DNA from: Parabacteroides massiliensis
GTDB lineage: Bacteria > Bacteroidota > Bacteroidia > Bacteroidales > Tannerellaceae
Length of the DNA stretch: 64,000 bases
Reading direction: 5' to 3'
NCBI RefSeq assembly: GCF_900155425.1
Contig: NZ_LT700189.1
Span: 861,787-925,786 of the forward strand
Under the pieces are notes generated by a model that saw nothing but the letters and a program-made list of their open reading frames with translations, was not told where the DNA came from and made no database searches. Below, piece after piece: positions 4,548-15,760 of the stretch. How positions within the stretch are numbered: the stretch's first letter is position 1; every line of letters begins with the position of its first letter. A program made the translations under genes and the position numbers.

Positions 4548-7028
4548 CTACAGATACCGTTCCACAGCCTGCCCCACGATAACACCCGCCTGGCGGATCA
4601 CCTCGGATAAAAGCCGTTTCCAGCCGTCGTCTGTCAACGCTTCGTCGTTCTTCTCAAGGATTCTCAGCTGGGCCACCAGGTCGGAAGCGCCCAACATGGT
4701 GAAAAGGGGGATCAGCTTATGGGAGATTTTGGCAGCCGGACCACGTTCGGTCTTCTCCAAGGCTTGTCGCAACAACGAAATGCTCTTGTTCGTCTCCTCG
4801 GCAAAGGTCCGGATAATGGATGCGGAGGCTTCTTTGTCTTCGCCGGCAAAAGCGGTGAGCGAATCGAAATTGAATTCGGGCGACACCTCGGTTTGTATAT
4901 CGGCCTGCAGCAGGCTATTCAACAAGGTGATCAGCTGCTTAGCCGTGAAAGGTTTGTTCAAGAACCCGGTGAACCCGGCTTCCAGATAGTGGGTATGCTC
5001 GTTTTCCACACTGGCCGAGAGCGCGATGACGGGGACGGCCTGCGTTCCGGGGACACCCGACGAACGAATAGCGTCGAGCAGGCCGTAGCCATCCATGCCC
5101 GGCATCTGTATGTCGGTTATGATCGCATCGAAAGAGCGGTTACGCAGAATATCGACCACGGCAAACGGGTTCGAACAACTGGCGACCTCCACATGGTTCC
5201 GTTTCAGAAACTCTTCCGTCAGCGCCAGTTGAAGCGGATCGTCGTCGACCAGCAAGCAATAGATTTCGCGCCCACCGAAACTGCCGGTCTCCGTTTCGTC
5301 CTCTTCGACAGACGGGGCGGACGGCAATGCCTGCACTTCCGATTCCTGCAACGGCAGGACGATCGTAAAATCGCTGCCTTTTCCCGGAACGCTCTTCAAC
5401 GACAACGTCCCTCCCATCAGCTCGATCAGCTTGCGGGTGATGGAAAGCCCGAGGCCGAAACCTTCTTCCTTTTCGGTTTCCGACAGGCGGGCGAACTCGC
5501 CGAAAATCTTCTCCTGCTCCTCTTCCGGAATTCCGATGCCGGAGTCGGAGACGGTAACGGACAATTGAGAATCGACTATTGACAATTTGACTATCAGGAC
5601 GATGCGGCCTTCGTGCGTAAACTTGATGGCGTTGGACAGGAGATTGCCGACCACCTGGCGGAGGCGTATCGGATCGCCGGAATAGATACGGTCCATCCCC
5701 TCCTCTTTCATGTTCAAGACAAAAGCCAGTCCCTTCGCCTCGGCCATCGGGCGGAAACTCCCGTATATTTCGTTAAAGAGCGTACGCACGCTGAAAGGCA
5801 CGTTCTGTATCTCCATCTGCCCCGACTCCAAGCGGTGAAAATCGAGCAAACCGTTCACCAGCGAAAGGATATGGTCTGCCGATCCGGTCATGTTCTCCAG
5901 ATAATAGCGCTGCCTTTCGTCCGGACGACGGCGCATCAGCAGTTCGATATAGCCGATTATGGACGAAAGCGGCGCCCGGATATCATGGCTGATCGTCAGC
6001 ATCAGCTTCTCCCGCCTGTGGAGCAGGTCTTCGGCATATTGCTTGGCTTTCTCCAATTGCTGCCGGTAATATTGGCTCTTGGAGATATCGCGCGTGATCA
6101 GGATGATAAAGACTACCACGATAATCAGCGACAAGACGGCGACGGCGGCAATAAGATAGGAGGTTTCGCGCAGCACCTCTTGCTTCTTCACGACACGCTC
6201 CATCGACGCGTTCATCTCTTCTTCTTCTATGTCGCGCAACATCTGGTTGATCCGGCTTGTGATGATGCTGTTGTTGTAGCGCAGGTTGGCGGCGCGTTCC
6301 AGAAGCCGGTCGACAAGTTGCTTACGCTGGTCGGCCACACTGTCCTGCAAGTTTTTCAGGACCGTCACGATCGTATCCGCCGGGTTAAAGGTGTTCACCA
6401 GCGTGTCGGTCACGATCTGCCGGGTCGTGTTCACGACAACGACCGAATCTGTTTTGGGCGGAGAAAAGGCATCGGCAAGGCGACGGAAAAAACCGCGCTG
6501 CTTACGTGCCTGGGGTGTCTTTACGGAATCTTGGTGCACGATCACGCGTTCCTGTATCTCGACCTGCCGGACCATCGTATCCTGCCGGGCGATCACCTTC
6601 TCGATGTTTTGCGTGTAGAGCTGCTCGGAATTCGCCTCGCGCCAGGTTTCCAACAGGCGGCGCGTGTTCCGGCGCTTTTGTTCGATCAGCATGTCGATCG
6701 TGTCGATCTTGGGATACAACGCGGGATTCGAGACCAGCGTACGCAGAGAATCCATGTTCTGCAGTGCCTTGTTCAGCGTACGGTTGAAATGGTTGATCTC
6801 TCCTTGCGGACGCCCTATCACTTGCCCGAGCGCTTCGCTTTCGTACAACAGCGACAAGGTATTGGTCACGAGGTAGACCTTCTCGCGCGATTTATGGTCC
6901 GGGTCGTCTTCGACGGCAAACTGTTCGATGATGTTATAGATGTAAACGACCGAACACACAGCCATCAGGATCAGCAACAAGTATCCCACGATGACTTTAC
7001 TTGCGATATGCCCGTTTTGCGTGCTCAT
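4548..7028 (-). CDS. Hybrid sensor histidine kinase / response regulator with Hpt domain
   Basis: This 826-residue kinase is membrane-anchored. TM1 is at about 11-31, followed by a coiled-coil-rich periplasmic region of about 260 residues and TM2 at about 291-311. The HisKA box follows with H348 (LTISHDIRAPLSS), then an HATPase with N-box GNLLSNAIKF and GFGLGLSI. A receiver comes next with D639 (ITDIQMPGMDG) and K692, and a C-terminal Hpt domain with H770 (KISHKLI). It is therefore a complete internal phosphorelay with no DNA-binding output, so a separate response regulator must exist elsewhere. Its start overlaps the stop of the phosphoethanolamine transferase gene by one base (TGATG), so the two are translationally coupled. 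Residues about 481-493 (KLSIVDSQLSVTV) are encoded by a copy of the dispersed family B repeat. Confidence 0.93.
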   Translation of the reverse strand: MSTQNGHIASKVIVGYLLLILMAVCSVVYIYNIIEQFAVEDDPDHKSREKVYLVTNTLSLLYESEALGQVIGRPQGEINHFNRTLNKALQNMDSLRTLVSNPALYPKIDTIDMLIEQKRRNTRRLLETWREANSEQLYTQNIEKVIARQDTMVRQVEIQERVIVHQDSVKTPQARKQRGFFRRLADAFSPPKTDSVVVVNTTRQIVTDTLVNTFNPADTIVTVLKNLQDSVADQRKQLVDRLLERAANLRYNNSIITSRINQMLRDIEEEEMNASMERVVKKQEVLRETSYLIAAVAVLSLIIVVVFIILITRDISKSQYYRQQLEKAKQYAEDLLHRREKLMLTISHDIRAPLSSIIGYIELLMRRRPDERQRYYLENMTGSADHILSLVNGLLDFHRLESGQMEIQNVPFSVRTLFNEIYGSFRPMAEAKGLAFVLNMKEEGMDRIYSGDPIRLRQVVGNLLSNAIKFTHEGRIVLIVKLSIVDSQLSVTVSDSGIGIPEEEQEKIFGEFARLSETEKEEGFGLGLSITRKLIELMGGTLSLKSVPGKGSDFTIVLPLQESEVQALPSAPSVEEDETETGSFGGREIYCLLVDDDPLQLALTEEFLKRNHVEVASCSNPFAVVDILRNRSFDAIITDIQMPGMDGYGLLDAIRSSGVPGTQAVPVIALSASVENEHTHYLEAGFTGFLNKPFTAKQLITLLNSLLQADIQTEVSPEFNFDSLTAFAGEDKEASASIIRTFAEETNKSISLLRQALEKTERGPAAKISHKLIPLFTMLGASDLVAQLRILEKNDEALTDDGWKRLLSEVIRQAGVIVGQAVERYL

Positions 7029-8746
7029 CAGTCTTTCTTATAGGCCATTTTCCATTTGTCCAGCATAATGAAATCGGCTTTCTTCAAGCCTACTTTCCAG
7101 AAAGGGACCGGCTCGTCGTGGTCTCCGAGAAACATACGGTCGCGCACGGCAAAAGCGGGGTTGGTCAGTGCCAGCGTGGAGTCGGACACCGAAGTCCGTA
7201 CACCGGCAATGTCCAATACCGTATGGAACACGCTGTTCGTGCTGACCGGGTAAGCGCCGTGAGACACCGCCGTCCGGTATTTTTCCGGGAAAACCTCCCG
7301 GTAATCGTCCGAAAACCAGATGATGTACGGGATATGGAGCTGATAGTAAGTCGGGATCGGCGAAGCATGCAGGTAACGGGCACGCGCATCATCGAAAATA
7401 TCCTCTCCGTGGTCGCTCAGATAAAGCATCGCCGAGCAGGACTGTTTCTTTTTCAGCATGTCGACGATTTCTCCCAAGACATAATCCGTGTAACGGATCG
7501 AATTGTCATAAGCATTGCGCAGTTCTTTCTTATAAGACTGGCGGATGCCCTCGGCCTTGTCCGGCGTGTAGATCCGGAACTCGGCCGGATAACGCTCGTG
7601 ATAGTTGAAATGCGACCCGTAGGTGTGGAGGACGACAAACATGTCATCGTCCGATTTGTCCAGCTCCTTTTCCAGATAGGGCAAAAGGGCGGCATCGTGC
7701 AACGAGGTCAGATAGGATCCGGTGTTGAACGTGCTCATGTCGATAAACGTATCGGCCTCCCGGTAGAAAGCTCCGATCATCGAAGTGGTCAATTTCTGGT
7801 TGGCGATGACGAGCGTGCGGAAACCGGCTTCCTTGAAAGCGGTGACAATGCTTTTCTCGTCGTAAATCACGCCATAGTTTTCCGCACTGGCGGCAGACAG
7901 GATGATCGGGACGCTCTTGTGCGTGTTGTTGGATTGCGTCACGACATCCGTAAAATGGACCATGCCGTCGAGCTCTTTCATCCGCGGAGTCGTATTGCGT
8001 TCATACCCGTACAGGCTCCATTCCATAGCTCGCGAGGTCTCTCCCACCACAAGCACGTAAATCTCCCGTTTGCCATCCGCTCGTTCCGTCCGGACCGAAT
8101 TGAACTTGAAATCGGCGGATGAAACGGAATAGTTGGCATTCTTGTTCGATTTGGTAATCGCAAAATAGAGGTTATAAAGCGCATTGACCGGATAGACGTC
8201 GTTCTTGAGCGAGAAACTGTGCTTTTGCAAAGAGGGCAGAAAACAGAGCAACACACCCACCACGAAAAGCCCCAAGCTCCTGAACGCCCATTTCTTACGG
8301 AAAACGGCGCTCAACTTGTCTTCCATGCGGACCGAACGCATAGCCAGCCACAAGGTCGGAAGCGTATAAAAGAGAAAGACGCAAATGATGACGAGAAAAA
8401 TGTTTCCTAACAATTCGCTCGCCTCGGAAGCGTTCGAACTTGTCAGGTTCAGGAACATGTCTACCGCTATCACCGACTCGCCAAAAAGGTACAACAAGAC
8501 CAACTGCCCTCCGTCCAATATGATCTTCGGCAACAGGCACCAGACCACCACTCCGGGTTTGCGTGCCAGCAGCAAGATTCCCATCCAAAACGCCAAAGGC
8601 ATGATGATGGAGGCAAGTCCGACCGAAACGGGAAGAGGCTCCGTGAACAGAAAAACACAGTTCGGGATGATGAAAAGCAAGCCGAACAAGAAATATAAGT
8701 GTTCCTGTGAAGATATCCAACGCAAAATATTAGTAAAGTATCTCAT
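7028..8746 (-). CDS. Phosphoethanolamine transferase (EptA/Mcr-like, sulfatase fold)
   Basis: An inner-membrane enzyme of about 572 residues. Five N-terminal membrane segments (roughly 20-175) precede a periplasmic alkaline-phosphatase-like domain. VLVVGETSRAMEWSLYGY carries the metal ligand Glu and the nucleophile Thr (T240 counted from the upstream GTG). YLSDHGED carries the metal-binding Asp-His pair. The family moves phosphoethanolamine from phosphatidylethanolamine onto lipid A or a related glycan, which lowers surface charge and sensitivity to cationic peptides. I chose ATG 8746; a GTG at 8755 would add three residues. It is the first gene of a two-gene unit with the hybrid kinase, which may regulate envelope modification. 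The exact acceptor is not known from sequence. Confidence 0.88.
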   Translation of the reverse strand: MRYFTNILRWISSQEHLYFLFGLLFIIPNCVFLFTEPLPVSVGLASIIMPLAFWMGILLLARKPGVVVWCLLPKIILDGGQLVLLYLFGESVIAVDMFLNLTSSNASEASELLGNIFLVIICVFLFYTLPTLWLAMRSVRMEDKLSAVFRKKWAFRSLGLFVVGVLLCFLPSLQKHSFSLKNDVYPVNALYNLYFAITKSNKNANYSVSSADFKFNSVRTERADGKREIYVLVVGETSRAMEWSLYGYERNTTPRMKELDGMVHFTDVVTQSNNTHKSVPIILSAASAENYGVIYDEKSIVTAFKEAGFRTLVIANQKLTTSMIGAFYREADTFIDMSTFNTGSYLTSLHDAALLPYLEKELDKSDDDMFVVLHTYGSHFNYHERYPAEFRIYTPDKAEGIRQSYKKELRNAYDNSIRYTDYVLGEIVDMLKKKQSCSAMLYLSDHGEDIFDDARARYLHASPIPTYYQLHIPYIIWFSDDYREVFPEKYRTAVSHGAYPVSTNSVFHTVLDIAGVRTSVSDSTLALTNPAFAVRDRMFLGDHDEPVPFWKVGLKKADFIMLDKWKMAYKKD

Positions 8747-8903
8747 CGATTTCACCTAAAGATGCATCCTAACTGCTGCACCTTTTTCGTTACATTTTTG
8801 ATAAAAAACATTATGACTGGCAAAAATAGAAGTAATCTTCCACATGCAGACATATCCGACACACAAAAAAAGTTATCAAAGAGAGAATCTTTGCTATTCT
8901 AAA

Positions 8904-11303
8904 TTATTCGTTTTTTACAACTTTGGCCAGATTTCCGTTAGCAGCTTTTAAAACTTGCCCAAACACAGTAAAAAGCACAATCAAAATAATACCTCCCAAT
9001 ATTGCCGCCAATAGCCACAACGGAATATTTATATGGTAAGCATATCTTTGAAGCCAATGTGCCATGACATAATAAGCCAGTGGCAATGCAATAAAACCTG
9101 CCACAAGGATAAGTATCGTATATTCGCGAAAAAACAAATTGATAATATCTTTAGTCCCGGCTCCGGCAATTTTACGAATAGCGATCTCTTTGCGGCGACG
9201 TTGGGTCGCAGTCGTAGCTACAGCATAAATGCCGAATAGAGATATTAAAAGACTAACAATTGCCAATATGGAAAACAATTTCAAACCAACCTGCTCAGAA
9301 TAATTCAAATGATCATATAGTTCATTGAGCAGCATCAAGCGATTATCTGTCAAACAGACATCTACACTCGGCAAAATTGAATTTATCTGTTGAATAACCT
9401 CTTGCTCTTGACCTGAAACAACACGAATATACCAAATATCCTCCATGCCCGGACGCAAAATACTTGGATAAATAGGGCTTCGGAAAGATAACGAGTGGAA
9501 GTTTCTTACTACGCCGATTACTTCATATTCCTCCATCGGAGCCAATCCATCGCTACTGATAAAAAAAGGGCTTATACGTACAACTGTTCCTATCGGATGC
9601 TCATTAAGTCCCATCACCCGGACTGCTTCTTCATTGAGAACGATCTTCTTATTTTCGTTTTTTCCCCACCATCGGCCTTTCAACAATTCCAAATCAAACG
9701 TTTCTGCAAATTTGTCTCCAACAGGGATCCATTGAAAAACAGACTTGTCCAAATCATCTTTACCAGGCCATTCAACCTCGCTTGTCATTAAATCTGATCG
9801 AACATTTTGTCCAGGTTCAAACGAGGTCGTAGAAATATTCACAACTTGCGGTATTGCTTCGAGTTTTTGTGTCAATGCGGCTTTATTATTCGCAAGTTTA
9901 GCATTTGCACTGTACAACTGGATAATCCCATCAGGATCAAACCCCAAATCTTTTTGGGAAATAAAACGCATTTGCATCATTATCACTGAAACAGCAACAA
10001 TAAACACTATACTTACAGCGAATTGCAACGATATGGCAATTCGCTGCAATTCACTTTTCCGGCTTGTTTTTTTCATTGACAAATTTTTCATTATCAAACG
10101 ATTCAAATTCAATAAAGGAATAAGATTGGCAACAAAAAGACATAATAGCGTAATCAAACTGCACAAAACAGAAAAACGTAACAAAAGCGGTATATCCATC
10201 ACGATACCCAACAGATTGGCTAACAAAGGAGAAACAAGGGAAATGAAACATCCTCCCAACAGTAGTGCGACTAATGCAATACAGGTTTGTTCAAACATCA
10301 TCTGCAAAATAATTTGAAAATTTGTTGCTCCATATACCATACGTTGGCGAAATTCATGAACACGTTGCAAGAATAGCCCAAGATACAAATTCAGAAAATT
10401 AAACAACGCGCTTAACATCAATAAAATTCCAGCCACTACTAATAATTGTATGAAATTAAACGTGAAAGGCAAATTGGTATTTAAATGATGACGAACCTCT
10501 TTTATCGGCAATATATTCAATTCGATATTGGGGTTCACGTTTATTTGCGAAGTAAAGTCACGAAGTTGTATGGCCAATCCGTCTATATCCGTATGTGAAT
10601 GGATTTTTACATACAAATTGTTGTTAAAATAGCTCCATTGTTCCGCTTCCGGCATTATCATCGATGCGTCTTGCAAGGCTGGATAGTTGAGAAGTGCATC
10701 AAATGGCAAATTGGTGTTCAAAGGCGGATCCTTGACTACCGCAGTCACTGTGCAGGATCCAAAAATACGGGAAAGCGAATTTTCCAATTTTTGCCCGATA
10801 GCTTTTTCCACACTGCCGAACAAACGCGTGGCTATAGTTTCCGTCAAAACCATATTTCCGGCAACTTGCAATGCTTGCTGCATATCACCGATAACACACT
10901 CTTGCGGAAAAACTCGAAAAAAAGCCGTATCGGCACAGATTGTATTCAATTGAGTGTAATAGGTCTTTTCGATATTGTTATAATCCAACCGTTCACAGAT
11001 GAAATCTGTGGAGGACTCTATCACCGGAAACTGCTTGAGTAATTTCTTTCCTAAAATACCCGGTACTCGTTCGTTTATTTTTCCGGATTGCTTTTCCACT
11101 GAATAAATGCGGCATATCTGATCTGCATCGGGATAAAAACCATCGTATGTGGTTTCATAATACATCCAATAAAGAGCCGGGACAAAGCATAACAAAGCAA
11201 ATGCGAGTCCAAAAACAGCTGTAAATGACTGTATCTTAAACCTATTAAGGTTCCGAAAGGTAATTTTGAAATATTGTTTGACAATATACATTTGATTATT
11301 CAT
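8904..11303 (-). CDS. FtsX-like ABC transporter permease (MacB type)
   Basis: This 799-residue protein has the duplicated layout of Bacteroidales MacB-type permeases. A TM at about 20-45 is followed by a large extracytoplasmic MacB-PCD region, an FtsX block of TMs (about 285-400), a second TM (about 425-445) with another extracytoplasmic domain, and a final FtsX block (about 680-780) including RRRKEIAIRKIAGA. Such permeases need a separate ATPase; none is in the window. Its start overlaps the end of the pseudo-rSAM gene by 8 nt, so it is co-translated with the peptide-modifying genes. Possible roles are peptide export, immunity or sensing of the modified peptide. The tie to the RiPP genes is inferred from overlap and low GC. 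Confidence 0.85.
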   Translation of the reverse strand: MNNQMYIVKQYFKITFRNLNRFKIQSFTAVFGLAFALLCFVPALYWMYYETTYDGFYPDADQICRIYSVEKQSGKINERVPGILGKKLLKQFPVIESSTDFICERLDYNNIEKTYYTQLNTICADTAFFRVFPQECVIGDMQQALQVAGNMVLTETIATRLFGSVEKAIGQKLENSLSRIFGSCTVTAVVKDPPLNTNLPFDALLNYPALQDASMIMPEAEQWSYFNNNLYVKIHSHTDIDGLAIQLRDFTSQINVNPNIELNILPIKEVRHHLNTNLPFTFNFIQLLVVAGILLMLSALFNFLNLYLGLFLQRVHEFRQRMVYGATNFQIILQMMFEQTCIALVALLLGGCFISLVSPLLANLLGIVMDIPLLLRFSVLCSLITLLCLFVANLIPLLNLNRLIMKNLSMKKTSRKSELQRIAISLQFAVSIVFIVAVSVIMMQMRFISQKDLGFDPDGIIQLYSANAKLANNKAALTQKLEAIPQVVNISTTSFEPGQNVRSDLMTSEVEWPGKDDLDKSVFQWIPVGDKFAETFDLELLKGRWWGKNENKKIVLNEEAVRVMGLNEHPIGTVVRISPFFISSDGLAPMEEYEVIGVVRNFHSLSFRSPIYPSILRPGMEDIWYIRVVSGQEQEVIQQINSILPSVDVCLTDNRLMLLNELYDHLNYSEQVGLKLFSILAIVSLLISLFGIYAVATTATQRRRKEIAIRKIAGAGTKDIINLFFREYTILILVAGFIALPLAYYVMAHWLQRYAYHINIPLWLLAAILGGIILIVLFTVFGQVLKAANGNLAKVVKNE

Positions 11304-12471
11304 ATTTTTTCGAATTAGGTTTCACATGACATAGATTAGAATATCCGATAGCTATTTCATATTTGGATGGAGAAGGACAATACCATTGATATATACATGT
11401 ATCACATGGAGATTGATCACGAATTCGAAACCAAGATAAACCTTCTTCTATTTCTTTTTGTACTAAATCATAAATACTATTCATATATATATTACCCAAC
11501 TTCGGATGATCCATATTCGCATAAACATCACCATTGGACATAATATTGATTTTACCAAAATCATAAGCATTCATCGATTGGCGAATATAAAAATCTTTTA
11601 TTGAAATAGATGCAGACAAAATATCTTCCTTAGAAAGATATATATGTTTTTTAAAAAAGAGAATATTATCTCCTGTATATATTGGATTTAATTGAAATTT
11701 TTCAATTTTATACTTTTCAGTTAACAACTCAACTTTCAAGCAATCTTCTTCAGAAGATACATCAAAAATGTATTCCACATCTAAAGAATGATTATATAAA
11801 ATATCTATCGATTTATTCCATTCATTAATTTCTATTGGTAAATGAACAGATACTTTAAACTTAAAATTGTTCAAATCAATTCGCAAATGAGTTAAATTTT
11901 TATATGAACAAATAATATATTTATTAGAAGAATGATTCACTAAAAAAAACAACAGATCTTCATGATTTAATATGTCATTCCAATCTCCAACCACATTAAA
12001 AACCACTATATTAGGTATTGATCTTAAAATCGGTATTAACAGTCTATCACTAATGTTCGAATCCACATGAATACTTATCTCTGATAAATTCTCTAATACA
12101 TTCTTATTATCTGACAAATAGATATTTTTAGGATTAACACCTTTAGTTATAAAATCATAATAAGGCAATAACTGTATTGGTTTTCCATTCGACAAACCAA
12201 CTTCTATAATATCTCCCATAAATTTTTCTCGAAGTTGAAAAATAAATTGCCTAATATCCAAATGATTATATCTTTCATATGACAAGAATAGCACACCGCA
12301 ATTTTCTTTTTGAAGTGTCTCACGCATTAATTCTACTACTTCCAATTTATTTGATTCCACAATTTGTTTATCTAAAGTGTTATACAATACCACTTCTTTA
12401 TCTGAAAATCCGACAAACACATATGGTTCAATTGCAAACCAGTAGTTATTGATTTTTTCTTCTAATTCCAT
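11296..12471 (-). CDS. Pseudo-radical-SAM protein with SPASM-like C-terminus (GG-Bacteroidales RiPP partner)
   Basis: This 391-residue protein looks like a radical SAM maturase barrel but has no CxxxCxxC cluster motif. It keeps a Cys-rich C-terminal segment (CDTCIYQWYC, then a Cys in SNLCHVKP, about 357-381) that could hold an auxiliary iron-sulfur cluster, as in SPASM domains. From memory this combination matches TIGR04150, the pseudo-rSAM member of the GG-Bacteroidales natural product system. It starts 14 nt after the true maturase and overlaps the permease gene by 8 nt. A likely role is binding or presenting the precursor, or forming a heterodimer with the maturase; that is inference. The gene is strikingly AT-rich compared with flanking core genes. 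Confidence 0.8.
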   Translation of the reverse strand: MELEEKINNYWFAIEPYVFVGFSDKEVVLYNTLDKQIVESNKLEVVELMRETLQKENCGVLFLSYERYNHLDIRQFIFQLREKFMGDIIEVGLSNGKPIQLLPYYDFITKGVNPKNIYLSDNKNVLENLSEISIHVDSNISDRLLIPILRSIPNIVVFNVVGDWNDILNHEDLLFFLVNHSSNKYIICSYKNLTHLRIDLNNFKFKVSVHLPIEINEWNKSIDILYNHSLDVEYIFDVSSEEDCLKVELLTEKYKIEKFQLNPIYTGDNILFFKKHIYLSKEDILSASISIKDFYIRQSMNAYDFGKINIMSNGDVYANMDHPKLGNIYMNSIYDLVQKEIEEGLSWFRIRDQSPCDTCIYQWYCPSPSKYEIAIGYSNLCHVKPNSKKYE

Positions 12472-12485
12472 ATATCAAATTATTA

Positions 12486-13919
12486 TTAATTTAAATTTTC
12501 TATAATAGAAAAAAATTCATTCGGATATTTTTCTAAAAAAGAAAAGTATTCATATAGAGTTTTCTCAAAATTTTCTTGATCTTGAAAATAATCACAATTC
12601 AAATCCTCTGAATCCAATTTATCCATATTGACAAAGTGAAATATGCAGGAACCACAAAATTTATAACAATAACAACGCTCACAAATATCCAATGCATGTT
12701 CAAAATAATAGTTATATCTTTGTGCTATTTCCTGAAAGTCAATTTCAACATTATCGTTTACTTTCCCTAACGAATATCTAAAATTTATCTTTTCACATGG
12801 CAGTAGTTTATTCTTAACAGTTAAAAATATTTTAAGAGAAAACGGCAAACAAGTTCCTGTTGGTAGATATTTTTCTTTCTTATTGTAGAGACTTATTTTA
12901 TTCAATACATAGTAATTTATATTGTAATACTTTACAAAATTCACTAATTCATGAAAAAAAGATGTTTCATACTGTGTTTTTTGTATTTTGTTCAAACATT
13001 CATTTTGATATATTGTTTCACTTTCTCTTTTACTCTGAAACATTCTATCCAAAACGTCTTTTTTATCAGGTTTACAATCAGCCATATTTAATTCTATAAT
13101 AGCAGGTATTTTATTATATCGCGAATAAATAAACTCATAAATATTTTTTACAGAGTTTCTATCATGTAAAACCGATATAAAATTCACGTATTTATCGAAA
13201 TATTTTACACATTTTTCTTGTATTAAATCGATATTCCGAATTACAGTATCAAAAGAATTTTTTTCTCCTTTACCAAAAATTCGATAAGCATGATTGTTTT
13301 TATCCCCATCCAAACTAATTGTTAAATAGATTTTGTTTGCCACTAAAAAATCCAAATGCTTATATATTAATGTAGCATTTGTTGTCATCGAATACTCTAT
13401 ATCTAATATCTTATTTGTATTTAATTGACTTACAACATCTATAATCTGTTGTATAAAATTCATGTTCAGTAAAGGTTCGCCTCCATAGAAACCAATCATC
13501 AGCTTATTTTTACAGCTCTTAGCTTTTAAATTAAATACATACTTAAGAAGTTTTATAGCATTCTCAATATACAAATTATTATATTCCCTTTTATCTGTTA
13601 CCTGAAACATCTTTCCATAACCGCAGTATACACAGTTTAAATTACATGAATCCGTAACTTCAAATACGATTTGCGTAGTTTGTATAATACTATCTAAAAC
13701 GTCTATTTCACTCACTTTCTTAAATTGTGGAACTACGGTTTCTGTAAAAAAACCTTTCTTTTTCAAATAAGCATACTTTTTCAAATAATAAGGATCAACA
13801 TCTCGAAACTGTTCATATACTTTTTTAATTTCAGGGTGTATCAACAATGATAATCTTGATCGATCATCATATATATAATAATTGTTGTTGACTGTCGAAT
13901 GAATAAGCGTTTGTATCAT
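12486..13919 (-). CDS. Radical SAM/SPASM peptide maturase (GG-Bacteroidales family)
   Basis: This 477-residue enzyme has the canonical cluster motif CNLNCVYC (C92, C96, C99), which binds the SAM-cleaving 4Fe-4S cluster. GFYGGEPLLN is the GGE SAM-contact motif. The C-terminus is a SPASM domain with auxiliary-cluster cysteines (CLPFS, CEKINF, CERCYCYKFCGSC and a last Cys in LNCDYF). Residues 1-85 resemble the peptide-recognition region of RiPP maturases (YIYDDRSRLSLLIHP). From memory this is the TIGR04148-type maturase. The substrate should be the 54-residue precursor encoded just upstream on the same strand, most likely at its three core cysteines (thioether crosslinks are common in SPASM enzymes; the chemistry here is inferred). 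The start ATG lies about 200 nt beyond the precursor stop, across a hairpin region. Confidence 0.88.
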   Translation of the reverse strand: MIQTLIHSTVNNNYYIYDDRSRLSLLIHPEIKKVYEQFRDVDPYYLKKYAYLKKKGFFTETVVPQFKKVSEIDVLDSIIQTTQIVFEVTDSCNLNCVYCGYGKMFQVTDKREYNNLYIENAIKLLKYVFNLKAKSCKNKLMIGFYGGEPLLNMNFIQQIIDVVSQLNTNKILDIEYSMTTNATLIYKHLDFLVANKIYLTISLDGDKNNHAYRIFGKGEKNSFDTVIRNIDLIQEKCVKYFDKYVNFISVLHDRNSVKNIYEFIYSRYNKIPAIIELNMADCKPDKKDVLDRMFQSKRESETIYQNECLNKIQKTQYETSFFHELVNFVKYYNINYYVLNKISLYNKKEKYLPTGTCLPFSLKIFLTVKNKLLPCEKINFRYSLGKVNDNVEIDFQEIAQRYNYYFEHALDICERCYCYKFCGSCIFHFVNMDKLDSEDLNCDYFQDQENFEKTLYEYFSFLEKYPNEFFSIIENLN

Positions 13920-13967
13920 AATCGTATCGTTTAGTTACCTTTTAAACTATCATTTGATAATGCATAA

Positions 13968-13985
13968 AAACTCATCTATGAGTTT
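13968..13985 (-). promoter_or_regulatory. Small hairpin in the leader of the maturase gene
   Basis: AAACTCA and TGAGTTT form a perfect 7-bp stem with a 4-base loop, about 50 nt before the maturase start codon. It could affect RNA stability or translation of the enzyme gene. Confidence 0.4.
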
Positions 13986-14001
13986 ATTTGAGATAAAAAA
14001 A

Positions 14002-14074
14002 TATCCGAAAACCCTCTTTACGAGACTCAAAAACTCACGAATAAAAGTCTCAATAAAAAACGAGTTTTCGGATA
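14002..14074 (-). promoter_or_regulatory. Nested stem-loop between precursor and maturase genes
   Basis: The outer arms TATCCGAAAAC (14002-14012) and GTTTTCGGATA (14064-14074) are a perfect 11-bp inverted repeat. Inside it GAGACT (14022-14027) pairs with AGTCTC (14046-14051). The structure sits in the transcript about 45 nt after the precursor stop and 83 nt before the maturase start. A hairpin here fits partial termination or RNA processing that would give more precursor than enzyme mRNA. There is no strong U-run right after it, so it may stabilise the 3' end of a processed transcript. Confidence 0.55.
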
Positions 14075-14117
14075 CCTTAAATTAAGAGTAAACTTTCTGA
14101 ATTCTCTGAATAAAACA

Positions 14118-14282
14118 TTATTTACTCACCGGAACTGCTTTACACCAATATTCACTGGCTCCGCCACCTCCCATGCAGCTACACTTGGAGGCACCACCTT
14201 TTAAGCCATTCATAGCACGCTTTTCTAACTCATTCTCACTAAAACGAGTCAATTTGATTTTGTCCAAAATCTTTTTTTCCAT
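14118..14282 (-). CDS. Double-glycine RiPP precursor peptide (GG-Bacteroidales radical SAM target)
   Basis: A 54-codon gene starts at ATG 14282 and stops at TAA 14118. It has a good ribosome site (GGAGGG) about 9 nt before the start. The leader begins MEKKILDKIKLTRF and includes ENELEKR, then MNGLKGG, a classic double-glycine end at residues 29-30. The core is 24 residues with Cys 34, 36 and 47, a run of four Gly (38-41), and the tail SEYWCKAVPVSK. The pattern LxxFSxNELxxxxMNxLxGG followed by CxC agrees with my memory of TIGR04149 precursors. The gene heads a unit with the maturase and pseudo-rSAM genes. Cleavage after GG would need a C39 peptidase, not seen here. The mature product and its activity are unknown. 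Confidence 0.85.
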   Translation of the reverse strand: MEKKILDKIKLTRFSENELEKRAMNGLKGGASKCSCMGGGGASEYWCKAVPVSK

Positions 14283-14319
14283 AAATACACCCTCCATTGA
14301 TTATGCATTGATACTGGTA

Positions 14320-14351
14320 CAAATATAAGCATATCAAGGAAATAAAACACA
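14320..14351 (-). promoter_or_regulatory. Bacteroidales-type promoter of the RiPP precursor
   Basis: On the minus strand a perfect -7 box TATATTTG (14320-14327) is preceded by 20 bases and then TGTG (14348-14351), one mismatch from the -33 TTTG. It lies about 38 nt upstream of the precursor start. Confidence 0.6.
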
Positions 14352-14727
14352 CAATTTTTGTTTATATTCCACAATAAACACTATATTTTATAGGCTTCTT
14401 ACGCTATATCAAGCCATTCACCGCTTGTCTCCATGTTTTCGCTGACTACACATACTTTCGGTCTAGCATGCCTATGCGTTGATTCTATTCTATCGGAAGC
14501 CCGATTGTTGTATCATAACGACTGACTAGATATGGGGCTTCACCGCAGGAAATTTCCATTCTTATCGTCTAAACGTATGACTTCCAAGTCTTGTTATCTG
14601 GAAAAGAAATTTTGTTTGGACCGGCCATCCATGTATGCCGAGTATCGTCAACAGTGTTGAATACATCTTTTCGTCTGAACCAAGCTTCGTCTACAAGATT
14701 ATTTTAACATGAGCTTAGTAAAATTCA
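14341..14727 (-). pseudogene. Decayed remnant of a DNA methyltransferase (restriction endonuclease subunit M-like)
   Basis: Reading the minus strand from about 14706 gives NLVDEAWFRRKDVFNTVDDT, then RHTWMAGPNKISFPDNKTWK, a TAG stop, then RMEISCGEAPYLVSRYDTTI, a second TAG, RIGMLD, a frameshift, and VVSENMETSGEWLDIA, a TAA, then EAYK. From memory this follows the protein family annotated as restriction endonuclease subunit M, which has CGEAPYLVSRYD and RIGLLDRKLRVVSEN in this order. At least three in-frame stops and a frameshift make it non-functional, and both ends of the gene are missing. Its truncated end meets the promoter of the RiPP cluster and its other end meets the DUF6088 gene, so it marks an accessory-DNA junction. 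The family name rests on recall, not a search. Confidence 0.6.
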
Positions 14728-15315
14728 TAATGCAAGTCTTTGTTTAATCCATTGCGGAGCAATGCTGTAATCGTATTTGATTTCATCGGGACTGCCATAT
14801 TTTTCAATGGCTTGTTTTATGATTGCGACCTGTTCATCTGTCACGTTATCTTTCCCTAATTCTTTCATGGCAGCGGCTATAAGTGGAAACAAGTCCGTCT
14901 TATAAGCAAAATTGCGGGGTACACTACGCTTGAAGATGATTTTACGATTCCCGATAGTAAGTTCCCTTGCTGCGGCATCTGTTAAATAGACCGCATTCAT
15001 CGTAACCTGTGTAGAAAGTCCTAATTTGTTCAACGCAGTCAATCCACTGGGTATAATACGAGCCTTATCCTTTTCTGCTATAGCGTATGCTATATCTTCA
15101 ATAGACGGGCGAAGCACACCATACTTATTTCGTAAAGGATATAAATAAAGGCCTTGCGAAAGGCGTATGAGCATACCTTCCTTTTCTAGTCGGGAAAGGG
15201 CACGGGTAACCAACCCGTCATTATTGAGATGGGCAAAATCACTTACCATATAAAGCCTGTTCGGCCCGTTTCGGTCTATGATATTTCGTATCTCCTTTGT
15301 TAGTATTGTCTTCAT
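14725..15315 (-). CDS. DUF6088 family protein, AbiEi-like antitoxin/transcriptional regulator
   Basis: This 196-residue protein begins with a winged-helix-like segment (about 20-60: LYMVSDFAHLNNDGLVTRALSRLEKEG split across helices). It continues with the AbiEi-type middle (RIIPSGLTALNKLGLSTQV, about 85-105) and ends in a short acidic-basic tail. DUF6088 proteins resemble AbiEi antitoxins of type IV toxin-antitoxin systems, which normally precede an AbiEii nucleotidyltransferase toxin. Here the position downstream is taken by the methyltransferase remnant and no toxin is visible, so this looks like an orphan. It may still repress its own promoter. It sits at the edge of the accessory segment. 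Confidence 0.75.
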   Translation of the reverse strand: MKTILTKEIRNIIDRNGPNRLYMVSDFAHLNNDGLVTRALSRLEKEGMLIRLSQGLYLYPLRNKYGVLRPSIEDIAYAIAEKDKARIIPSGLTALNKLGLSTQVTMNAVYLTDAAARELTIGNRKIIFKRSVPRNFAYKTDLFPLIAAAMKELGKDNVTDEQVAIIKQAIEKYGSPDEIKYDYSIAPQWIKQRLAL

Positions 15316-15760
15316 ATCCGCAATGATTCCATTTGCAAAGATACCATATTACTCTCTTGAAGTGGTAATAAAATGTCCGAAATTCTTAAAGAAAATCAGA
15401 CATTACAAAGAATTCTTCGTGGTTTGATATCTCAATCCTAACTATATTATGTTGTGATAGTTTGTGATTTCTTTTGGAACCGGATGTCATTTCGTCGGCA
15501 AAACAGCCATTATTGTGTGCATATAGATATGTTAAAAAATATTACCCTATAGTGTAATTCCCAATATACGGGGTACTAATCCGATTTAGACGGGGTGGCG
15601 TGACATTTTGATATTTCAATAATCTTGCAAATGTTTTCAAAAATCTTGCAATATGCCGCCGGAAAGGCCTTGCGGTTTCGGACTGTCGTTTTTTCTCTTT
15701 AACTTCGGGCAACCGAAAGGAGAGATTATTCAGATTCATAACAATAATAACAAAGACAAA
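15316..15760. other. Intergenic region upstream of the glutaminase gene
   Basis: This 445-base gap lies between the divergent DUF6088 and glutaminase genes. It is AT-rich and holds a pair of direct repeats (listed separately). A continuous open frame extends upstream of the glutaminase start to 15653, but it lacks a signal sequence and is not used. No RNA gene is seen. Confidence 0.6.
15621..15651 (+). promoter_or_regulatory. Direct repeat AATCTTGCAA, possible operator
   Basis: The decamer AATCTTGCAA occurs at 15621-15630 and again at 15642-15651, 21 bp apart start to start, which is two helical turns. Paired sites on one DNA face are typical of dimeric activators. It lies about 110-140 bp upstream of the glutaminase start. 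Confidence 0.4.

Follow-up and report, generated by a model that had tools for sequence, protein, structure and literature searches.

The nearest known counterparts of the gene cluster considered here are the GG-Bacteroidales cassettes, combining genes of the TIGR04149, TIGR04148 and TIGR04150 families, that were reported in 2015 from Bacteroides fragilis 3_1_12 and B. uniformis ATCC 8492 (PMC4573289). Clusters with a pseudo-rSAM protein (rSAM standing for radical S-adenosylmethionine, or radical SAM) were reported in 2023, the Bacteroidales examples BGC3-5 comprising rSAM, LanC-like and pseudo-rSAM proteins (PMC10352776). Further afield, the two rSAM-fold proteins TrnC and TrnD of thuricin CD are proposed to cooperate on one precursor, only one radical activity being strictly needed and TrnD's own radical chemistry not strictly required (PMC12093266), and in the darobactin system DarBCD, the nearest analogue of the permease discussed below, was not essential for production in the study cited (PMC9055067). 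The present cluster lies in a stretch of 64,000 nucleotides, referred to throughout as the window, from the 5.0 Mb genome of Parabacteroides massiliensis (contig NZ_LT700189.1, positions 861,787 to 925,786), and encodes a putative ribosomally synthesised and post-translationally modified peptide (RiPP) together with two rSAM-related proteins and an ATP-binding cassette (ABC) permease. A preliminary description, made from the window alone, had called the modification and role of such peptides undescribed; in so far as no characterised member or product of TIGR04148/TIGR04149/TIGR04150 cassettes was found in the open-access literature this stands, although the system itself had already been reported (PMC4573289, PMC10352776). 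The elements of the cassette are as follows.

14118..14282, minus strand: precursor peptide, 54 residues; TIGR04149, 39.2 bits (cut-off 25)
13998..14078, minus strand: long hairpin in the precursor-maturase gap, with a run of T behind it; may act as a partial terminator
12486..13919, minus strand: radical SAM/SPASM peptide maturase, 477 residues; TIGR04148, 420.4 bits (cut-off 300); Pfam Radical_SAM
11296..12471, minus strand: partner (pseudo-rSAM), 391 residues; TIGR04150, 373.4 bits (cut-off 250)
8904..11303, minus strand: MacB/FtsX-type (ADOP-like) ABC permease, 799 residues; Pfam MacB_PCD and FtsX

Precursor, maturase and partner had been correctly placed in position, strand and family, all three exceeding the curated cut-offs in profile searches, and the precursor had been rightly divided into leader and core; the extent originally given to the cluster (11296..14282) does contain them, but is too narrow, missing both the permease at 8904-11303 and the insertion in which all these genes lie. 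Our preferred reading, which we regard as probable without being assured, is of a horizontally acquired RiPP cassette in which a two-subunit maturase, one half of it catalytically retired, would crosslink a CxC peptide that would then be cut at its double glycine and exported. Gene identities, conservation, the insertion, the co-occurrence of genes and the predicted folds are direct results of the analysis, while crosslink, complex, cleavage and transport are what these suggest.

The precursor belongs to TIGR04149 by its score, by its double-glycine leader (which ends in LKGG, the motif MNGLKGG occupying residues 24-30) and by the presence of a maturase gene 198 bp downstream, and its 24-residue core, ASKCSCMGGGGASEYWCKAVPVSK, shows the expected Cys 34, 36 and 47 and the run of four Gly. 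An alternative in-frame ATG at 14297 would give a precursor of 59 residues, the length of the near-identical database protein P0121, which together with five more distant relatives made up the six matches of a protein-collection search. The string YWCKAVPVSK occurs in all of these (P0121-P0126), and comparison with the five relatives (P0121 excluded) gives identities of 75% for the leader, 86% for the core and 98% for the last 11 residues, the core being better conserved than the leader. Across nine aligned precursors with a core of the present type, including those of loci L051, L054 and L215, C34, C36, Y45, W46 and K48 are invariant, three of the nine lacking the third Cys. An order-wide search using the precursor alignment as query found matches in 14 of 393 genomes, and a six-frame scan of 274 sequences for GG..C[ST]C..YW(C)K returned only the window gene, G028, G045/P. 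goldsteinii and G061. As for the hairpin behind the precursor gene, the fold of 13985-14120 has an energy of -35.1 kcal/mol (z -4.37), equalled by none of 200 shuffles; it is not listed by a simple terminator scan (5 sites on both strands, 3.7 expected). Strong hairpins also occur in most of ten other precursor-maturase gaps that were folded, L054 excepted, these being energies without a shuffle control. The hairpin would probably halt part of the transcripts ahead of the enzyme genes, leaving the precursor in excess.

How general this arrangement is can be judged from a collection of named genomes, where a plain protein query retrieved no relative and an alignment query retrieved 134 loci, of which 80 were kept. 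In 57 of the 80 the maturase has, on its own strand and no more than 6 kb away, a precursor matching the leader profile, which together with the database relatives of the precursor marks the small open reading frame as more than a chance one; of the 23 loci with no precursor match, 13 have less than 3 kb upstream of the maturase. Since several of L071-L150 were among the loci used for training (18 leaders, four from the genome of the window and 14 from relatives), this detection is only partly independent. In 74 loci no more than 400 bp separate the maturase from a TIGR04150-like partner, so that pairing with such a partner is the rule in this family, where the preliminary description had called the pairing of an active and an inactive maturase unusual. 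With each core taken to begin after the earliest GG, GA or GS at or beyond residue 19 (a few may be misplaced), 79 of 87 distinct cores carry CxC, whereas 500 shuffles averaged 27.5 and never exceeded 45. A GGSS..N..AN-like stretch follows it in 43 of the 87, conserved across Bacteroidales and looking like one common modified scaffold; the window core has no such stretch. YW(C)K is confined to the precursor subtype seen here, CxC being family-wide.

The maturase was expected to be a true radical SAM/SPASM enzyme, and its sequence agrees: in addition to its curated TIGR04148 score it has CxxxCxxC at residues 92-99 (Cys 92, 96 and 99) and seven C-terminal SPASM-type Cys (357, 375, 413, 416, 422, 425 and 442), all invariant in an alignment of 25. 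Sequence-profile matches among solved structures are TigE, CteB, ChlB and anSME, with TigE and CteB nearest, and the next-best NCBIfam models, all below their cut-offs, are those for CcpM, lachnocin, RumMC (sactipeptide) and PapB (ranthipeptide) maturases, models for Cys-rich peptides among them. Proteins of this type are numerous (2211 at E <= 1e-40, out of 7997 scored candidates); a search of 393 genomes at E <= 1e-90, a cut-off that excludes many known relatives, returned only the genome of the window itself. The enzyme would cleave SAM reductively and link at least one Cys of the CxC to another core residue, and because CxC is the family-wide substrate feature, Cys thioethers are the likeliest modification, an expectation to which the maturase's nearest characterised relatives also point.

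The partner had been described as inactive, on account of a missing CxxxCxxC. For the window gene this is so, the motif being absent from its whole sequence with a four-Cys C-terminal site retained, and the loss is common to the whole clade of this partner and therefore not recent damage. For the family it is not: CxxxCxxC is retained in 40 of 85 partner proteins, two of them encoded elsewhere in the genome of the window, one at C3:319206-320432 (the 85 are distinct frames above 300 residues gathered by similarity, with shorter ones dropped and near-copies such as L091-L093 kept, and the weakest, L135 and L145, may fall outside TIGR04150). Five of five motif-bearing relatives that were scanned exceed the TIGR04150 cut-off (293-512 bits), the two from the same genome scoring 387 and 350 bits, in a scan that took in only part of the other 35. 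Absence of the motif, a criterion taken here from the name of the family, thus fails as a family-wide trait. A tree of the partners (83 rows, 370 residues, built by a quick method and carrying a long-branch warning) needs 8 changes of motif state, best read as repeated loss, and the name pseudo-rSAM is partly a misnomer, one that may mislead the annotation of motif-keeping members. The predicted layout of the window protein is an N-terminal domain of leader-binding type, a barrel without the cluster loop and a four-Cys SPASM-like end, that is, the predicted fold of a radical SAM/SPASM enzyme. Most likely it is a catalytically retired subunit, which would bind the leader and the maturase as reported for TrnD. 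An idea that loss of the motif might be tied to the presence of an N-terminal domain on the maturase (28 + 24 cases with, 14 + 13 against, n=79, excluding L080, which is cut by a contig end, and partners with no maturase within 400 bp) was dropped because the tree gives only 3 independent pairs and no signal.

The permease gene starts within the 3' end of the partner gene, overlapping it by 8 bp. The protein scores 186.8 bits against ADOP, below cut-off, and the seven other permeases of MacB/FtsX type in the same genome reach at most 159 bits. In L051 and L054 close relatives of the window permease stand beside precursors. Three of the 87 distinct precursors near maturases have the core C[ST]C..YW(C)K, and the same three have a same-strand member of the permease clade (> 400 bits) in the locus, as against none of the 84 with other cores; precursor and permease are 128 bp apart in L051 and L054 and 2.8 kb apart in the window, where both enzyme genes lie between them. 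The core pattern was set after these three loci had been inspected, and the only independent case is L215, where a search based on the permease found a fourth precursor of the type, with CSC..YWK, in G061, 54 bp past the permease (10439-10594; TIGR04149, 38.4 bits; adjoining ATPase and permease genes). A weaker case is G082, whose contig starts with 17 residues resembling the partner's end (76%, E 0.001, a weak match at a contig edge, the letters before it being unlike the partner) just before the permease, as in the window. After cleavage behind the GG by a protease that would be encoded outside the island, the product may be moved or sensed by this permease, with ATPase and periplasmic subunits presumably supplied from elsewhere.

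That these genes arrived together is indicated by the state of the same site in relatives. Parabacteroides goldsteinii and P. distasonis are among the same-genus relatives of the genome.

8753..15479, no strand: inserted segment; insert proper about 8877-15479, weak flank similarity reaching about 8876

The insertion measures 6.6-6.7 kb and runs from the permease through a DUF6088 gene. The two sides of the segment are only 139 bp apart in G044 (L263) and 182 bp apart in G046 (L264), where seven flanking proteins share 90-97% and 89-97% identity, respectively, with those of the window, and the flanking genes are likewise adjacent in G033 (L266); because the site is empty in these three Parabacteroides relatives, the segment is an insertion. 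Base composition fits the earlier remark that the genes are AT-rich, with a guanine-plus-cytosine content of 0.26-0.27 in the maturase and partner genes and 38% in the permease, while the rest of the window, beyond the segment, has 0.51. Horizontal acquisition as one Parabacteroides insertion carrying all the genes is the best explanation, within a reading that as a whole we hold to be probable. The possibility that the permease was ancestral at the site, raised by EptA- and kinase-like genes near the permease in L214, is ruled out by the empty sites, and for a phage origin there was no match among phage records. The left flank (4548-8755) carries a histidine kinase/response regulator hybrid and an EptA-like phosphoethanolamine transferase, kept in several Parabacteroides.

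All this said, a number of results weigh against a two-subunit maturase whose crosslinked product is exported by this permease. Crosslink, complex and export would here be deduced from the genes; Foldseek by itself (without VIA-align) gave no match for the partner at E <= 0.001; and no ATPase, adaptor or leader peptidase gene was recognised in the island. In G061 the precursor has no maturase or partner within 18 kb, nor was a G061 maturase found at E <= 1e-40 (the genome being 89% complete). Of 123 genomes in the family, no fewer than 31 carry the permease clade at >= 579 bits (a lower bound, as at most 8 candidates were scored per genome), and 26 of 29 fetched loci (L188-L216, all scanned, second copies on other contigs of six genomes being left out) contain no precursor, maturase or partner; the partner match in L216 is the G028 cluster already counted as L051. 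Finally, the five RiPP-linked permeases are scattered on the permease tree (5 changes, with 500 of 500 shuffles as low), which rules out a permease lineage dedicated to the peptide: since the clade is often without RiPP genes and its RiPP-linked copies are scattered, this is not a dedicated exporter lineage. It is accordingly a serious possibility, though one we lean away from, that the permease serves in immunity or sensing, or is an unrelated neighbour in the same insertion, the more so as members of its clade in L188, L193 and L202 share operons with regulators and with genes resembling those for TolC, adaptors and ATPases, and as the C39 domain (PF03412), absent from the island, has its one match in the genome some 570 kb away from the window (C1:292468-292830); set against this are the four precursor loci, in two gene orders, that have the core type in common, and the weaker case of G082. 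A bolder and decidedly tentative proposal is that TIGR04150, rather than being a pseudoenzyme family, is the second half of a two-rSAM maturase that has lost its radical chemistry several times and been left as a leader-binding scaffold. In one subtype, on this proposal, a single MacB-type permease clade would have the CSC...YW(C)K peptide as its dedicated cargo or ligand; precursor and permease would then be the selected unit, and the rSAM genes could even be missing, as in G061.

The chemistry may be questioned in the same way. The partner might still be an enzyme-like half, contributing an auxiliary Fe-S cluster from its four-Cys site or shaping the active site, beyond binding the leader: at each of the four C-terminal Cys columns 98% of the 85 partners, with or without CxxxCxxC, have Cys, and alignment A3 (35 sequences) shows no variation at C356, C359, C365 and C381, but four-Cys Fe-S sites could be purely structural, and we think this rather unlikely. 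The invariance of Y45, W46 and K48 in the nine precursors, including the three without a third Cys, would suit a Trp/Tyr-to-Lys carbon crosslink of streptide, darobactin or cyclophane type at the aromatic/Lys end of the core, with the Cys unmodified or disulphide-bonded, and the permease is distantly similar to DarB (NF038008, 102.4 bits). That score, however, is far below the 700 bits set as cut-off for DarB, the cyclophane model YhhB ranks behind those of RumMC and PapB for the maturase, and CxC marks nearly the whole family where YW(C)K marks this subtype only, which makes such a modification unlikely. Least probable by a wide distance is a decaying cassette with no product, its partner's cluster lost, its export genes missing and an antitoxin gene without its partner alongside. 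It might be argued from the motif-less partner, from the missing C39 gene and from the lack of any LanC-like or propeller-like reference match in the window segment scanned, where 41 of the 80 named loci have one or both; against it, four frames, the catalytic motif of the maturase and the core in relatives are all preserved, and the clade-wide loss of the partner's motif is not recent. A maturase with one retired half acting on the CxC thus remains the reading we prefer.

Next to the cassette, in the same insertion, lies one further gene.

14725..15315, minus strand: DUF6088/AbiEi-like antitoxin gene (PF19570, 167 bits; PADLOC AbiEi, 193.6 bits)

The region 14300-15315 has no intact partner gene for it, and a short frame past its stop (near 14725) may be the beginning of an AbiEii-like toxin gene since lost; the antitoxin gene is a passenger or a remnant. 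Elsewhere the same genome has six more TIGR04149 precursors above cut-off, three more TIGR04148 maturases and three more TIGR04150 partners, plus one fragment under the cut-off. The fragment, a TIGR04150 C-terminus (C1:262017-262169, 84.8 bits), is found at the end of the genome's second cluster, as are two overlapping frames resembling one propeller-like protein (L018, 17163-18388), together a sign of past duplication and decay. A separate locus on C1 (L019, 7440-19195) contains four CC.CGC...GAN..GG precursors; after each comes a protein of roughly 420-450 residues, in some cases with a lipoprotein-like start. In one described Bacteroidales cluster every precursor has a putative signalling protein behind it (PMC10352776).

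The TIGR04148/TIGR04149/TIGR04150 family is large and present in many Bacteroidales, and with motif-bearing and motif-less partners in the same genome the purpose of a cluster-less rSAM partner becomes directly testable, in a system made small and tractable by its short conserved core and its permease gene. No report of motif-bearing TIGR04150 proteins or of the permease link was found in the open-access literature, and the excerpts of the 2023 study do not mention CxxxCxxC in many partners (PMC10352776). What the window shares with BGC3-5 is the combination of rSAM protein, pseudo-rSAM protein and precursor; those clusters have a LanC-like protein, whereas the window island has no LanC-like or glycosyltransferase match (PMC10352776). 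With the 2015 Bacteroides cassettes it shares a TIGR04149-class precursor and two paired radical SAM proteins, of which one belongs to TIGR04150, but where B. uniformis has an ABC bacteriocin exporter and a haemolysin-secretion-type protein the window has a MacB-type permease (PMC4573289). TrnD is an active rSAM enzyme (PMC12093266), unlike the motif-less partner here with its putative role in a complex, and CteB, PqqE and TigE (PDB 5wgg, 6c8v and 8vpo) are cluster-bearing radical SAM enzymes, from which the partner differs in lacking the radical cluster motif, with identities of 8-16% and a root-mean-square deviation above 7 in the two long alignments. The window core is CSC...YW(C)K in place of the commoner CxC...GGSS..N..AN type. 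The core of darobactin follows the pattern W-x-W-x-K, which the window core does not have. Its cluster, DarA-DarBCD-DarE, is likewise a set of genes for an rSAM-modified peptide and an ABC transporter (PMC9055067). On this comparison the gene families and the kind of cassette were already known, and it is the CSC...YW(C)K peptide type and the link to a transporter that look new.

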